The notes under the pieces are model-generated. The model did no database searches, was not told where the DNA came from, and saw nothing but the letters and a program-made list of their open reading frames with translations. From positions 1-64,000 of the forward strand of contig QCLO01000003.1 in assembly GCA_003214465.1 (NCBI GenBank): 64,000 nt of DNA. Reading direction: 5' to 3'. Source of the stretch: Acidimicrobiales bacterium AG-414-N20. GTDB lineage: Bacteria; Actinomycetota; Acidimicrobiia; Acidimicrobiales; MedAcidi-G1. A program made the position numbers and the translations under genes. Below, piece by piece: positions 1 through 6,474 of this stretch. Each line of letters begins with the position of its first letter. The first letter of the stretch is position 1.

Positions 1-2325
1 GAAGAAGTTGCTTTGCCTGATTTGGGCGGACGAACAGTTTCAGTAGCTATCGAAAATGCCTATCTGCCTTACAACTTTGTGGACGCAGAAACTGGTGAAA
101 TTGGTGGCTTTGACTACGATTTCTTCGGAGAGATCTGTAATCGTCTTAACTGTGAACTTGATTACACAGAGTTCGCTTGGGAAGGAACGATTCTTGCTGT
201 GGGTGATGGAACATTCGACACCGCAGGTGGCGGAATTACTATCACAGCAGAGAGAGAAGAAACTCTAGACTTCACAGACAGCTACATAAGTGTCGACCAG
301 AGACTTATCGTTGAATTGGGTGAAGATCGTTTCTCAAATCTCGAAGAATTCGGTCAAATGGACGAACTAACAGTTTGTTCACAGACGGGAACAACAAACG
401 CCGAAACAGCTATAGCAAACTTCGGTGAAGATCGTGTAATTCTCTTTGAGACATTCGGCTTCGCTGTTCAAGCTCTACTAGCAGGCGATTGCGATTCCGT
501 GATCATGGACGAAACTGCCGGACAGGGATATCAGGGTGAAAACGCTGAAGCACTTGAATTACTAGAAGGTGTGCTTAGCGCAGACGAACTAGGAGTTCCA
601 TTCCCTAACGGTTCAGACCTAGTAGCTCCATTTAACGCTGCGATTTCTTCAATGAAAGCAGACGGAAGCTTGTTTGAATTAGGTTCCAAATACTTCACCG
701 ACGCCTTTACAGTCACTTACGACGATATTGGCGACGGAGCTTACGCAGAGCCTGAGGTTGTGCCGGTAGCTGGTGGAACGCTTCGACTCATGATGGAAGC
801 TGAAAGTGACGGGCTTAACCCAACGGTTAACCGTTTTGCGATTTCTGGCCACATGATGGCTGGTGCCGTTTTTGACACACTTGTGTGGGTAACGGATGAT
901 CCCTGCGCATGTGTGTTCGTTGGCGGTCTTGCAGAGTCATGGGAAGCAAATGATGACCTTACACAATGGGACTTTAATATACGTGAAAACGTAGAGTTCC
1001 ATGATGGCACCATGCTTGACGCTGAAGCGGTTGCATTCGCAGTTCAAAGACAGCTAGCTGATCCACTTATCTCACTTGCTCTTAAGCCAGTCTTAGATGT
1101 AGGAAGAGAAGGAGGAGCGGTAGAAGTTGTAGATGACATGACTGTACGTTTCCATGCGTTAAGACCTCATGTTGACTTCCCGACTTACTTCTCGGGCCAG
1201 CTCGGCTATATTCCTTCACTTGCCTATATGCAGGCAGCTATCGAAGATCCAGCTTTGAACCAGATGCCTGTAGGTACTGGTGCATTCATGATGGATAGCC
1301 GTGAACAGGACTTGATGACTCGTGTAGTTAAGAACCCTAATTGGTGGTACAACGACCATTTGGCAGCAGGAGAAGTTCTCCTCGATGCAATAGAGTTCTA
1401 TGTTTACACAGACAGTGAGCTTGGTGCAGGAGCAATGTCGGCAGGTGACCTTGATGGTGTATCTACCTCAAGCATTGATGCGGCTATGATTCTGAGAGAA
1501 TTAGCAGATGACGGATATCAGGTTTTCGAACAAGATCTTGGCGAGGAAACATTCGCAATGATGAATGCCTCAAAAGCTCCATTCGATGATATTCGTGCAC
1601 GAAAAGCTTTGACTTATGCAACTGCTAAGGCTGACTATTTGGAATTCATAGGCCAAGGAGAACTTAGGTCTGCTGATACCTGGTTCCCACCAGAGTCGAT
1701 TTTCCATAATCCTGACGTTATACAGGAGGCAGATATGCCAGAAATGGCTGCTCCGCTAGTCGCAGAATACTGTGGGGATAAGCCTGACAACTGCAGTGAT
1801 GGAAAGATCAATATGGAATTCCAGTACTCAGGACCATCGGTTATTCAGGATCGAATATTTGATGTTCTTTCCGCAGGGTTTGAGCCTTATTTCAACGTTA
1901 CTAAAGACATGCTTTTGCAGGATGATCACATAACGCAGACAGCAATCGGTATGTACGATTTCCTTACCTGGAGACAGATGGGAGCTCGTAACCCGGATGG
2001 TGATGGTGTATGGATCGTCTGTGATGCAATTGGAGTTCTGTCACTTAACTGGCCGCGGTACTGCTCGCCAGAGCGTGACGAGATTCTTTACGAAGCAAGA
2101 GGTAGTAATGATCGTGATGCGGTCGTTCAAGCATGGAAAGACATTGCTGTAAATGTGCAGGAAAGCTACACATACGTGATGCTTACTCACACATTATGGA
2201 ATGCAACTTATGATCCCAAGGTAAGAGGAATGTGTGATTTCACATTCCCTGACGGGACAGAACCATACTGTCGAGGAACTGGTGGCGGATACGGAAGTTA
2301 TGCCACTATGTGGTTTGAAGAGTAA
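1..2325 (+). CDS. Fused double solute-binding protein (SBP_bac_3 + SBP_bac_5), 5' partial
   Basis: The frame is open from the first base, so the true start and any signal peptide lie before the window. Bases about 13-745 encode an amino-acid-type periplasmic binding fold (family SBP_bac_3): an early GRTVSVAIEN strand, then GGFDYDFFGEI, TAEREETLDFTDSYI and a TGTTNAE ligand-loop-like motif. After a short linker, bases about 770-2322 encode a peptide-type binding fold (SBP_bac_5), opening with GGTLRLMMEAESDGLNP and containing a DAEAVAFAVQR helix and a GTGAFM motif. Each half is close to the usual length of its own family. Several cysteine pairs could form disulfides in the exported protein. It lies just upstream of peptide-type permease and ATPase genes, so it very probably feeds them. 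The ligands cannot be deduced. The fusion is read directly; that both sites work is inference. Confidence 0.88.
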   Translation, partial: EEVALPDLGGRTVSVAIENAYLPYNFVDAETGEIGGFDYDFFGEICNRLNCELDYTEFAWEGTILAVGDGTFDTAGGGITITAEREETLDFTDSYISVDQRLIVELGEDRFSNLEEFGQMDELTVCSQTGTTNAETAIANFGEDRVILFETFGFAVQALLAGDCDSVIMDETAGQGYQGENAEALELLEGVLSADELGVPFPNGSDLVAPFNAAISSMKADGSLFELGSKYFTDAFTVTYDDIGDGAYAEPEVVPVAGGTLRLMMEAESDGLNPTVNRFAISGHMMAGAVFDTLVWVTDDPCACVFVGGLAESWEANDDLTQWDFNIRENVEFHDGTMLDAEAVAFAVQRQLADPLISLALKPVLDVGREGGAVEVVDDMTVRFHALRPHVDFPTYFSGQLGYIPSLAYMQAAIEDPALNQMPVGTGAFMMDSREQDLMTRVVKNPNWWYNDHLAAGEVLLDAIEFYVYTDSELGAGAMSAGDLDGVSTSSIDAAMILRELADDGYQVFEQDLGEETFAMMNASKAPFDDIRARKALTYATAKADYLEFIGQGELRSADTWFPPESIFHNPDVIQEADMPEMAAPLVAEYCGDKPDNCSDGKINMEFQYSGPSVIQDRIFDVLSAGFEPYFNVTKDMLLQDDHITQTAIGMYDFLTWRQMGARNPDGDGVWIVCDAIGVLSLNWPRYCSPERDEILYEARGSNDRDAVVQAWKDIAVNVQESYTYVMLTHTLWNATYDPKVRGMCDFTFPDGTEPYCRGTGGGYGSYATMWFEE

Positions 2326-2347: not shown

Positions 2348-2382
2348 AAGGGCGGCTGACTATGTCAGCCGCCCTTTTAATT
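2348..2382 (+). terminator. Strong hairpin between binding-protein and permease genes
   Basis: A perfect 13-bp stem (2348-2360 with 2364-2376) closes a 3-nt TAT loop, and the 3' side runs on into TTAATTTTCTTT. It starts 22 bases after the binding-protein stop and about 80 bases before the permease start. In binding-protein transporter operons such a hairpin usually allows partial read-through and protects the upstream mRNA, so the binding protein is made in excess. That role is inferred here. Confidence 0.85.
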
Positions 2383-2455: not shown

Positions 2456-3469
2456 GTGGGGGAAATGGGTTTTATTTTCAAGCGTGTAGCTCAAATGGTT
2501 GCTGTAATTATTGCAGCAACTTTCTTGGCTTTCACTGCGATGAGCTATTTGGGTGACCCATTGTTTAACATCGTAGGTTTTCATGCTTCAGTTGACTGTG
2601 ATGCGGTTCTTGCTGGAGAGATCGAAGACGTTTCAGGTCAGGGCGGAACAGACGTAGGCGACTGCGAAGTTGTAGAGGCAGCAAGAGAAAAGTACCACTT
2701 GAATGACCCTCTACCTATCCGTTACGGCAGGTGGGTCGGAGATGTTGTTCAAGGTGACCTTGGGGTTTCATTCAAAAATTCAATGCCTGTGACTACAATC
2801 ATCGGAAATCGAGTACCAAAATCAATATTTCTTATGGTGGTCGCAGAAATTTTTGCTCTTTTAATTGCGGTTCCTGCCGCTATAAGAGCTGCGTATAAAG
2901 CAAATCGTGTATTCGATAAATCAGCTACGGTTTCTTCTTTTGGTTTTATTTCCTTACCCAATTTCGCACTTGGTGTAATCCTTTTCTACTTATTTGTAGT
3001 CAAATGGCAGATATTCCCAAGCCGTTACGAAGACGATGACTTTTTCAGTCGTTTACGATCGACCGTTTTGCCAGGAATGACTCTAGCTCTCCCTTTAGCC
3101 GCAACGTACTTTCGTTTATTGAGAACAGACCTGATAACAACTTTGCAGGAAGATTTTGTTCTTATGGCAAAAGCTAAAGGGCTTTCAGATCGTTGGATAA
3201 TGTTTCGCCATGTTCTCCGACCTTCTCTTTTCTCTTTGGTAACAGTTTTTGGTTTAAGCACTGGAGGCTTGATAGGCGGAGCGTTAGTTGTTGAACAAAT
3301 TTTTGTGATCCCAGGAGTAGGAAGAACTTTTGTTGAAGCTGTCATTCGTGATGATTTTCCACTGGTGCTCGGGTTAGTCACTATAATTTCTTCAGCGTTC
3401 ATAGCAATCAACTTCGTTGTTGACATTTTTTATTCAGTTATCGATCCGAGGGTAAGTCGTGAAACTTAA
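2456..3469 (+). CDS. dppB: Peptide-type ABC transporter permease (DppB/OppB family)
   Basis: This is the first inner-membrane channel subunit of the importer. TM1 (near VAVIIAATFLAFTAMSYL) is followed by an extracytoplasmic stretch, then YGRWVGDVVQGDLGVSF, which is typical of DppB/OppB, then about five more membrane segments. The EAA-type loop that contacts the ATPase reads around DFVLMAKAKGLSDRWIMFRHVLRP. At 337 residues it is about 30 longer than usual; the extra is in the first external loop, which holds two cysteines. The start is uncertain: GTG at 2456 is used here, but ATG at 2465 is possible although the GGTGGGGG sequence sits very close to it. The end overlaps the next gene by 11 bases. 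The peptide substrate is inferred from family only. Confidence 0.9.
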   Translation: MGEMGFIFKRVAQMVAVIIAATFLAFTAMSYLGDPLFNIVGFHASVDCDAVLAGEIEDVSGQGGTDVGDCEVVEAAREKYHLNDPLPIRYGRWVGDVVQGDLGVSFKNSMPVTTIIGNRVPKSIFLMVVAEIFALLIAVPAAIRAAYKANRVFDKSATVSSFGFISLPNFALGVILFYLFVVKWQIFPSRYEDDDFFSRLRSTVLPGMTLALPLAATYFRLLRTDLITTLQEDFVLMAKAKGLSDRWIMFRHVLRPSLFSLVTVFGLSTGGLIGGALVVEQIFVIPGVGRTFVEAVIRDDFPLVLGLVTIISSAFIAINFVVDIFYSVIDPRVSRET

Positions 3470-4379
3470 TTTAATAACGACAAGACGCGGTTTTAGAGAT
3501 CTAAGTCCTCAGGATGAAGATTCCTCTAAAATAGACGACAAGAAAAGAGAGAAACGGAAAATCGGTTTTGGTTTCTGGGTTTCAATCGTATGGATGATTC
3601 TGGTAATTTTAGCTGCTCTTTTAGCACCTATATTGCCTATCTCTGACCCAGATCAGACAGGAGTAGGAGGACGACTTGACTCTCCTAACTGGGATAACTG
3701 GTTTGGCACTGATACAAATGGTCGAGATATGTTCTCTAGAACAATTTGGGGATCTAGAATTTCTCTCACGGTAGGTTTTTTCGCCATAGTTTTTGGATTT
3801 GCCGTTGGAGGCCCCATAGGAATAGTCGCTGGGTTTTTCAAAGGTGCGACCGACAAGCTCCTCTCGATAATAATTTTCATACTCTTTGCCTTCCCCGGTC
3901 TAGTGCTCGCTCTTTTGATAATTTCTCTTATAGGTCAGACACTCGCAGTTGTTTGCTTAACAGTTGGAATCATAGGTGTTGCACCAATAGCGCGTTTAGC
4001 TCGTGCAATCACAATTTCTACCGCTGAAAGAGAGTTCGTAGCAGCAGCAAGAATCCTAGGATCAACCAATCGAAGGATCATGATTAGAGAAATTCTTCCA
4101 AACGTGACCATCCCAATGGGGGCCCTTGCGTTTTTAGGGATGGCTTTGGCGATTGTCGGAGAAGGAGGGCTTGCATTTCTGGGTCTTTCAGTTGAAGAGG
4201 GTTTCTCTTGGGGAAAGATGATTGTTTTGGGGTCTGCTTCGAGAACTCTTCAAAAAGCACCATGGGTATCTATGTTTCCTATAGGGATCATGTTTCTAAC
4301 AGTGATGTCGCTTAACTATGCAGGTGACAGGTTAAGAGATTTCTTTGACGTGCGTGAAATGGGAATTGGGGGAGGTTGA
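3459..4379 (+). CDS. dppC: Peptide-type ABC transporter permease (DppC/OppC family)
   Basis: This is the second channel subunit. A charged cytoplasmic N-terminal tail of about 35 residues (EDSSKIDDKKREKRK) precedes TM1. The family hallmark HWFGTD-type motif appears as NWFGTDTNGRDMFSR, and the EAA loop as EFVAAARILGSTNRRIMIREILPN. It has the six membrane segments expected and 306 residues, a normal length. Translation starts at a GTG inside the end of the preceding permease gene, which suggests translational coupling. The gene ends two bases before the ATG of the first ATPase. Confidence 0.92.
   Translation: MKLNLITTRRGFRDLSPQDEDSSKIDDKKREKRKIGFGFWVSIVWMILVILAALLAPILPISDPDQTGVGGRLDSPNWDNWFGTDTNGRDMFSRTIWGSRISLTVGFFAIVFGFAVGGPIGIVAGFFKGATDKLLSIIIFILFAFPGLVLALLIISLIGQTLAVVCLTVGIIGVAPIARLARAITISTAEREFVAAARILGSTNRRIMIREILPNVTIPMGALAFLGMALAIVGEGGLAFLGLSVEEGFSWGKMIVLGSASRTLQKAPWVSMFPIGIMFLTVMSLNYAGDRLRDFFDVREMGIGGG
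4371..4375 (+). promoter_or_regulatory. Ribosome binding site fixing the start of the first ATPase gene
   Basis: GGAGG lies inside the end of the permease gene and six bases before the ATG at 4382. It favours that ATG over the in-frame TTG at 4376. Confidence 0.75.
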
Positions 4380-4381
4380 GG

Positions 4382-5464
4382 ATGTCTGCTCCATTAGTTT
4401 CTGTCGAAGATCTTCATGTCAGTTTTTTAACTGAACAAGGGCCTGTACGCGCGGTAGATGGAGTGTCATTTGATCTAGAACCCGGAAAATCGATAGGAAT
4501 TGTAGGTGAATCTGGATCCGGTAAATCTGTTACAGCTAAAGCATTAATGAACCTTTTGCCTTCTTATGCACAAGTTGAAGGTTCAATGAAATTTGACGGA
4601 AGAGACTTAAGAGAAATTGCCAGAAAGAAAGAAAAACATTTTTGGGGTGTTGAAATGACCATGATTTTTCAAGATCCGATGACTTCTTTAAATCCGGTTA
4701 AACGTATTGGCGAACAGATTGCTGAATCGCTACGTGTTCACATGAACCGGAGTCGCAGTGAAGCCATGACTGAAGCTGGGGAACTACTGGAACAAGTAGG
4801 AATTCCGGAACCTGCAAAAAGACTACGACAATACCCCCATGAACTTTCTGGAGGTCTTAGACAAAGAGTTGTGATTGCCATAGCTTTGGCATGCGGACCA
4901 AGGCTTTTGATAGCCGATGAACCCACAACAGCTCTGGATGTAACAGTTCAAAAGCATATTTTGGATCTTTTAGACGATCTTCGCAAAGAGCGTGGCATGT
5001 CGATGATTCTCATAACCCATGACCTAGGAGTCGTTAAAGGTCGAACAGATGAAATTATGGTTATGTACGGAGGTCGGACAATGGAAGAAGCTCCAACTTC
5101 TACTCTTTTCGAAAGTGATGGACTACATCCCTACACGGAAGCTCTGAATGCAACAATTCCAAAAATCGACACTCCAAGCCATACGAGACTCGTTCCTATT
5201 CCAGGCAAACCTCCAGAGATAATAGGTAAAATCATAGGTTGTCCATTCGTTCAGAGATGTCGTTATTCCACTAGTGAATGTTTAACTGAGATGCCCTCAT
5301 TAGTTGAGCAAGAAGAAGGACACTTTTGTGCATGCCACAATCCGGTAGGCACACCGGAAGGGGTTAATGCTAGAGAGGCTAATCAGAATGCGGGTTACAC
5401 ACCTGCAGGTTTAGACATGAAAGAATTTGAAACATTTGTTCGTGCGGACACCGGAGGGCTCTGA
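4382..5464 (+). CDS. dppD: Peptide-type ABC transporter ATP-binding protein (DppD/OppD family)
   Basis: This is one of the two ATPases of the importer. It shows Walker A GESGSGKS, the signature LSGGLRQR, Walker B LLIADEPTTALD and an H-loop ILITHDLG. The C-terminal oligopeptide/dipeptide domain has a cysteine cluster (GCPFVQRC, then CRYSTSEC, then HFCACH). Such a cluster carries a [4Fe-4S] site in the mycobacterial dipeptide transporter, so the same is possible here. The start is ATG at 4382, because a GGAGG ribosome site (4371-4375) is six bases upstream; an upstream TTG at 4376 would sit right against it. The gene overlaps the next by one base (TGATG). Confidence 0.92.
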   Translation: MSAPLVSVEDLHVSFLTEQGPVRAVDGVSFDLEPGKSIGIVGESGSGKSVTAKALMNLLPSYAQVEGSMKFDGRDLREIARKKEKHFWGVEMTMIFQDPMTSLNPVKRIGEQIAESLRVHMNRSRSEAMTEAGELLEQVGIPEPAKRLRQYPHELSGGLRQRVVIAIALACGPRLLIADEPTTALDVTVQKHILDLLDDLRKERGMSMILITHDLGVVKGRTDEIMVMYGGRTMEEAPTSTLFESDGLHPYTEALNATIPKIDTPSHTRLVPIPGKPPEIIGKIIGCPFVQRCRYSTSECLTEMPSLVEQEEGHFCACHNPVGTPEGVNAREANQNAGYTPAGLDMKEFETFVRADTGGL

Positions 5465-6474
5465 TGGCTGGTAGCGGAGTGGCTCAGTTACGTAATGATG
5501 ATGACATAGTTCTAAGCGTCAAGAATTTAGTAATGGAATTCAAAGTAGGTCGAGATGAGATAGTCCATGCGGTTTCCGATGTCAGTTTTGATGTCAAAAA
5601 GGGTGAAACACTTGGAATTGTTGGTGAATCAGGATGCGGCAAGTCCACAACTGCTCGATCTATCGTGCAACTACCCAAACCGACATTGGGTGAAGTGATG
5701 GTTAGTTCTGAGGGTGATTCAATTGAACTCACAGGCTTGAAAGGAGATGCACTTAGGAAAGTCAGACCCAAATTACAGATGATTTTTCAAGATCCTATTT
5801 CTTCTCTTAATCCACGAAGAATAGTCCGTGAAGTGGTTAAAGAAGGACTAACTATTTGGCCTAATGGTATGAGTTCGCAACAAATCGAAGATCGGGTTGA
5901 CGAGGTTCTCGAATCTGTTGGTATTGATCCTGAAATAGCAGCAAATCGAAGGGCACACGAGTTTTCTGGTGGACAATGTCAGCGGATTTCTATAGCCAGA
6001 GCTGTTGCATTAGATCCTGAAATTCTTATTTGCGATGAGCCTGTTTCCGCTCTTGACGTTTCCGTTCAAGCTCAGATACTAAATCTTTTAGAGGAAATGA
6101 AAGACAAGTATGGTTTGACACTTTTATTTATAAGTCATGACCTGTCAGTAGTTCGGAACGTGAGTGATCGGGTGGTAGTGATGTATCTCGGAAAAATTTG
6201 TGAGATTGGAAGTTCCGACACAATTTATTCCTTACCTGCACACCCGTATACTCGGGTCTTGTTGGCGTCAGCGCCTGAACCTGCTTCTACAGTTGACGCA
6301 TCTGAATCAGCAATAGGTGATGATATCCCATCACCTATAAACCCTCCAACAGGTTGTCGATTCAGAACCAGATGCCCATCTGCACAAACCCTATGTGCAG
6401 ACAAAGAACCTGAAATGCAAAAAGTTGGAGACGATCATTTCGTGGCCTGCCACTTTCCTGTCATAAACAATTAA
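5464..6474 (+). CDS. dppF: Peptide-type ABC transporter ATP-binding protein (DppF/OppF family)
   Basis: This is the second ATPase, which pairs with DppD. It has Walker A GESGCGKS, signature FSGGQCQR, Walker B ILICDEPVSALD and H-loop LLFISHDLS. The C-terminal HPY-type domain again carries cysteines (GCRFRTRC, LCADKEPEM, ACHF). At 336 residues it is of normal length. It starts in a one-base overlap with the preceding stop codon. Its TAA stop shares the palindrome TTAA (6471-6474) with the stop of the convergent epimerase gene. It closes the operon that starts with the double binding protein. Confidence 0.92.
   Translation: MAGSGVAQLRNDDDIVLSVKNLVMEFKVGRDEIVHAVSDVSFDVKKGETLGIVGESGCGKSTTARSIVQLPKPTLGEVMVSSEGDSIELTGLKGDALRKVRPKLQMIFQDPISSLNPRRIVREVVKEGLTIWPNGMSSQQIEDRVDEVLESVGIDPEIAANRRAHEFSGGQCQRISIARAVALDPEILICDEPVSALDVSVQAQILNLLEEMKDKYGLTLLFISHDLSVVRNVSDRVVVMYLGKICEIGSSDTIYSLPAHPYTRVLLASAPEPASTVDASESAIGDDIPSPINPPTGCRFRTRCPSAQTLCADKEPEMQKVGDDHFVACHFPVINN

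Follow-up and report, generated by a model that had tools for sequence, protein, structure and literature searches.

In textbook ABC import each translocator has a single binding protein or a single family of such proteins. In GlnPQ of Lactococcus lactis, each of the tandem substrate-binding domains (SBDs) binds on its own, and they compete for a single translocator (PMC8025302). The gene described here resembles GlnPQ in that several binding domains sit on one polypeptide with short linkers, but GlnPQ consists of two F-IV SBDs fused to a transmembrane domain in one transporter (PMC8025302), whereas our fusion joins three different Pfam families in a separate lipoprotein, and its genome context points to several transporters. 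With the DppA/OppA-type SBP_bac_5 lipoproteins that accompany DppBCDF it shares the C-terminal domain, the operon order and the lipoprotein leader; outgroup relatives of this type stand alone in frames of 599–640 aa, whereas the fusion has two solute-binding protein (SBP) domains ahead. ProX/OpuAC proteins, which go with ProVW, are alike in domain family, in three Trp on the ProX cage positions and in the presence of ProVW in the genome, but in the window's genus OpuAC lies away from ProVW and is found only on fusions. Homotypic tandem SBPs of other Acidimicrobiales (OpuAC-OpuAC in f36; Bmp-Bmp in f56) likewise place several domains in one frame upstream of a matching transporter, but repeat the same family. 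No description of heterotypic SBP strings was found in a literature search covering few subscription papers, nor are they mentioned in the paper on the MedAcidi-G1 family (PMC10205998). The parts are all known, but the arrangement and its apparent use appear to be new.

The window, meaning the whole stretch of 64,000 nucleotides that was analysed, starts with the following features.

1..2325, + strand: 3′ part (SBP_bac_3 + SBP_bac_5) of a multi-SBP lipoprotein gene, from the open frame, the contig start and the full-length relatives L002, L003, L009 and L010
40..699, + strand: SBP_bac_3 (amino-acid type) domain, PF00497, 9.4e-28, residues 14-233, 97 bits
700..771, + strand: last part of the SBP_3 module, then a short acidic linker (AEPEVVPV...), from the sequence, with the linker read in L002
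772..2322, + strand: SBP_bac_5 (peptide type) domain, PF00496, 9e-48, residues 306-589, 163.7 bits against a cut-off of 32.4
2348..2376, + strand: terminator-like hairpin with a 13-bp stem and a T-rich tail, separating the SBP gene from dppB
2456..3469, + strand: dppB-type permease, PF00528, 7.8e-36
3459..4379, + strand: dppC-type permease, PF00528, 2.5e-17
4376..5464, + strand: dppD-type ATPase, PF00005 and oligo_HPY
5464..6474, + strand: dppF-type ATPase, PF00005 and oligo_HPY

As the earlier note had read, SBP_bac_3 is joined in frame to SBP_bac_5 in one open frame with both Pfam matches, upstream of a single set of one dppB, one dppC, one dppD and one dppF. The frame (1..2325, +, 774 aa) is uninterrupted, with no frameshift near base 750, and is already open at base 1. 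A contig edge is the cause: base 1 of the window is base 1 of contig C3, by contig lookup, in a genome that is 85% complete. The frame of the proposed gene at 13-2325 thus holds, whereas base 13 is no true start, the relatives being longer upstream. In L002, L003, L009 and L010 the full-length gene is one frame of 1,200-1,210 aa, with about 420 extra residues upstream, and runs in the order lipoprotein signal, OpuAC (ProX-type), SBP_bac_3, SBP_bac_5, followed by dppBCDF. All three Pfam families score above cut-off in this frame, OpuAC at 78 bits, and the Pfam scan found nothing but SBP domains in the fusion frame, with no transmembrane domain attached. The suggested search of the upstream sequence for a signal peptide was positive in the relatives, which have the lipoprotein leader MEKLIRRRSWRIVSAVLALGLIAGAC-GSD with its Cys; in the window gene the leader lies beyond the contig edge, and contig C28, from the same genome as C3, ends inside the same leader. 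A domain search of the assembly of the window's own genome returned no OpuAC domain. From the upstream OpuAC of the relatives, the leader at the end of C28 and this lack of OpuAC, it follows that the OpuAC part of the gene is missing from the assembly. The first 240 bases of the window turned up only once in a search of the same genome. Read by sequence, then, the gene is a fusion of three families (OpuAC, SBP_3 and SBP_5), of which the window holds the last two thirds; the earlier description of a protein with two folds named both domains correctly but was incomplete. For the full-length protein, structure prediction on an alignment of four rows was uninformative (pLDDT 28).

An assembly join near base 750 had also been considered, but the same SBP_3/SBP_5 junction is found in L002, L003, L004, L008, L009 and L010 at 88-94% protein identity, loci that represent at least three differently named metagenome-assembled genomes (MAGs), some G-handles possibly being the same genomes as L002-L004. 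The names of these close relatives (Acidimicrobiaceae, Ca. Microthrix sp. UBA881 and marine actinobacterium MedAcidi-G1) point to the GTDB family MedAcidi-G1, which comprises five genera of planktonic Acidimicrobiales (PMC10205998). Chance as the source of the junction is excluded by such sequence comparisons. In UBA881 (G002; L074:5810-7727; L005) a frameshift splits the SBP_5 part into two frames, through sequencing error or decay. Relatives with two separate genes, the other outcome that had been considered, were not found inside the genus; other families of the order do encode SBP_3 (L059, L073) and SBP_5 (L058, L060, L061) as stand-alone genes, each beside its own transporter, and because of this the fusion is the derived state.

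Genes for dpp adjoin SBP_5 of this type in 21 of the 21 loci examined, divergently in L061 and, in L048, with only dppB falling within the contig. The hairpin between the fusion and dppB, whose stem recurs in L002, L003, L004 and L131, is what a need for excess binding protein would predict, and would allow the cell to produce more of that protein than of the transporter.

The window's genus is represented by seven genomes (G000-G006), which are 78-85% complete and whose assemblies often break at SBP modules. ProW is present in all seven, and their OpuAC domains were all found either on fusion genes or at the edge of a contig. In five genomes (L105-L108, L138) the ProVW operon could be read as ProV, ProW, two BPD_transp_2 permeases and two ATPases, and this ProV-ProW-LivHMGF-like operon contains no SBP gene in any of the five; nor does an SBP adjoin the HEQ permease and ATPase in five genomes (L100-L104). 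Both operons are assembled through, yet without an SBP gene. The only SBP_3 of this type in the genus lies on fusions, and the other SBP_3 of G000 (on C38) has its own permeases. SBP_3 is encoded with an HEQ-type permease and ATPase in the outgroups L059 and L073, but not in the window's genus, whose HEQ permease is 63% identical to the G052 outgroup permease that follows a stand-alone SBP_3 (L059). With permeases of genera g2, g4 and g6 it shares 68-78% identity; there the gene upstream is cut by the contig edge, and in g4 what remains of it ends in an OpuAC tail. In G032 the contig with a Bmp-SBP3-OpuAC gene and the one with the HEQ permease overlap exactly by 77 bp at their ends, which puts that gene immediately 5′ of the permease, and in the relative G020 the same operon comprises HEQ permease, ATPase, double ATPase and two BPD_transp_2; the domain set and the transporter set of this operon match. 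Elsewhere in G004 a gene carries OpuAC-PBP6, which are the families one would expect to serve the ProVW-Liv operon that lacks an SBP.

Because of the SBP-less ProVW and HEQ operons, the kinship of the permeases, the G032/G020 operon and the OpuAC-PBP6 gene of G004, we favor the view that one lipoprotein probably, if by no means certainly, serves several importers, with SBP_5 acting in cis and OpuAC and SBP_3 in trans. The cell would make a single lipid-anchored protein with three independent binding domains in a row, namely OpuAC (betaine), SBP_3 (polar amino acids) and SBP_5 (peptides), and the lipid tail would keep the string on the outer side of the membrane. SBP_5 would deliver to the DppBCDF importer encoded next door, and OpuAC and SBP_3 would deliver in trans to ProVW and HEQ-type importers, whose operons would have lost their own binding-protein genes. 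The domains would thereby dock on the ProVW, HEQ and Dpp transporters, and the benefit may be that one anchor and one protein are shared among several importers. The main weakness of this in-trans reading is the genome completeness of 78-85%: since the genomes are incomplete and often broken at SBP modules, an unassembled stand-alone OpuAC or SBP_3 gene may exist elsewhere in them. Against it also stands the recurrence of the OpuAC-SBP3 pair at L007/L076 without an adjacent transporter.

The earlier note had proposed that the fusion presents two ligands to one channel. Extended to all three domains, which would then feed the adjacent DppBCDF like the two SBDs of GlnPQ, this reading draws on dppBCDF being the only transporter that adjoins the fusion and on tandem SBDs competing for one translocator being established for GlnPQ (PMC8025302). 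The SBDs of GlnPQ, however, are of one family, whereas the SBP families fused here normally pair with different permease types, and the domain set of the Bmp-SBP3 fusion fits two transporters of its operon. Because the genus encodes ProVW and HEQ-type transporters without their own binding-protein genes, we consider a single channel improbable and less likely than one protein with several channels.

The fusion belongs to a larger set of mosaics. Fetching the loci around matches, followed by a Pfam scan and seed searches, gave about 25 multi-SBP architectures in five genera of the MedAcidi-G1 group, with contig-cut frames counted too. They are strings of two to four domains from a pool of Bmp, OpuAC, SBP_3, Peripla_BP_6, NMT1-like, PhnD, SBP_8 and SBP_5.

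Ending in SBP_5: OpuAC-SBP3-SBP5, Bmp-Bmp-SBP5, Bmp-SBP5, NMT1-like-SBP5, PBP6-SBP5, OpuAC-SBP5
Other strings: OpuAC-SBP3-X, OpuAC-PBP6-, PBP6-Bmp-X, SBP3-OpuAC, SBP3-Bmp, PBP6-Bmp
Bmp-SBP3 and PBP6-OpuAC strings: Bmp-SBP3-OpuAC, Bmp-SBP3-OpuAC-SBP3, Bmp-SBP3-Bmp, PBP6-OpuAC(-OpuAC)
With PhnD, NMT1 or SBP_8: PBP6-OpuAC-Bmp-PhnD (1,471 aa), Bmp-PhnD, Bmp-NMT1, Bmp-SBP8, and others
N-terminal partners of SBP_5: OpuAC-SBP3 in the window's genus; Bmp or Bmp-Bmp in g3; Bmp in one g4 genome; NMT1-like or PBP6 in g6

Among 28 family genomes, 37 of the 87 Bmp places over cut-off lie in frames of at least 600 aa; in an order-wide sample such long Bmp frames are a small minority, mostly Bmp-Bmp, and OpuAC across the order is mostly in frames of 300-500 aa. 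A separate NMT1-like-Bmp fusion lies upstream of a double ATPase in three genomes of family f27 outside the MedAcidi-G1 group (L140-L142). Throughout the family SBP_5 is kept at the dppBCDF locus, and the N-terminal partners vary by genus. The C-terminal domain also fits the neighbouring transporter elsewhere: OpuAC-OpuAC with ProV/ProW-like genes, PhnD with PhnC, NMT1 with a nitrate/taurine-type ATPase and Bmp with a double ATPase. A rule that it always does so was considered and dropped: it is true at SBP5, OpuAC, PhnD, NMT1 and Bmp loci but is broken by the Bmp-SBP3-OpuAC gene 5′ of the HEQ permease and by the domain 5′ of a XerC/D-like gene. At this XerC/D-like gene two species of one genus differ in N-terminal partner, OpuAC-SBP3 in G003 and PBP6-Bmp in G005, and the OpuAC-SBP3 pair recurs there ahead of another domain (L007/L076). 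That C-terminal domain has no Pfam match and no PDB match; kinship to Peripla_BP_6 modules was tried, but profile comparison showed no relation, so that "PBP6-like" is a reading of the sequence only. Orphan multi-SBP genes without an adjacent transporter lie directly 5′ of the XerC/XerD-like recombinase gene at L076:3-3296 and L086:1-4398. In G024 (L094:5111-9524) a Bmp-NMT1 binding protein is followed by a nitrate/taurine-type ATPase and by a gene whose highest similarity is to TMAO demethylase/GcvT, which may make this an uptake cluster for methylated compounds. The 1,247-aa regulator-like protein of G088 (L143:3121-6861, +) has a Bmp domain as its outer end and, by reading, a likely membrane segment; its Bmp domain is perhaps an SBP domain used as a sensor.

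Such strings are probably built and rebuilt when whole SBP modules are copied ahead of other SBP genes or in tandem with them. One frame in G013 contains two OpuAC modules that share 984 bp without a difference, G010 has two Bmp modules identical across 771 bp, and in G004 the OpuAC modules of two different genes are 98.6% identical in DNA (dS 0.06). Uniform homogenisation of N-terminal modules between species was not supported: between sister species, OpuAC has a dS of 0.13, little under the 0.18-0.23 of flanking genes. Around residues 900-1100 of the L002 and L003 fusions synonymous divergence is about 1, against 0.2 in flanking genes, which suggests recombination inside SBP_5. Many contigs end in or beside multi-SBP genes, and near-identical intragenomic modules (98.6-100%) are probably what breaks the assemblies.

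Module copying of this kind, including the 98.6-100% identical copies in G004, G013 and G010, together with the change of partners by genus at the same locus, is what one would look to if recombination among repeated SBP modules had carried the upstream domains along as passengers, leaving the C-terminal domain as the only working one. We regard this as unlikely, a shade more so than the single channel. Purifying selection acts on all three domains, and on SBP_3 as strongly as on SBP_5, with dN/dS of 0.04-0.09 for SBP_3, 0.08-0.11 for SBP_5 and 0.11-0.33 for OpuAC. Ligand residues are also kept. OpuAC of L002 has Trp at all three positions aligned with ProX Trp65, Trp140 and Trp188, which we take to be the aromatic cage for betaine. 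The closest solved chains to the SBP_3 module are amino-acid binders, e.g., AncQR 4zv1 and ArtJ 2pvu, and alignment to solved amino-acid binders shows its ligand positions kept (the Arg after ITAE and the Asp of VIMD), presumably the clamp for the amino-acid backbone. The domains would thus bind their families' usual ligands, and with idle upstream domains the SBP-less operons would be left without a binding protein.

That the extra domains are sensors or regulators, as the earlier note had also offered, is very unlikely: the Bmp domain on the regulator-like protein of a distant relative (L143) is in its favor, but no signalling domain or partner gene adjoins the fusions, which are ordinary lipoproteins mostly within transporter operons, and no evidence for a sensing half was found. 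Just as hard to credit is an assembly artefact, in which contigs are chimeric at repeated SBP modules; contigs do often end in or beside SBP genes, and the order across an identical module could be mis-joined, but each junction between domains lies within continuous sequence and is seen again in several MAGs and species, and tandem SBPs are also found in the one-contig genome G208 (OpuAC-OpuAC) and the three-contig G190 (Bmp-Bmp).

Returning to one lipoprotein that serves several importers, we give about even odds to its wider form, in which the family would have swapped dedicated binding proteins for recombining heterotypic strings on one lipid anchor, each serving several ABC importers, and the operons would have given up their own SBPs. 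If the domains do belong to different importers, the rule of one binding protein per translocator is broken, and it becomes a question how lipid-anchored domains split their time between docking partners and why small-genome ocean bacteria favor such strings; import systems could possibly be co-regulated via how much of one protein is made. With N-terminal modules exchanged at fixed loci and near-identical intragenomic copies in some genomes, the mosaics amount to a natural domain-shuffling system, and SBP strings are a plausible reason for the frequent breaks of MAGs at these genes in the MedAcidi-G1 group. The host is a free-living ocean bacterium, in which one membrane-anchored protein apparently feeds several separate uptake pumps.
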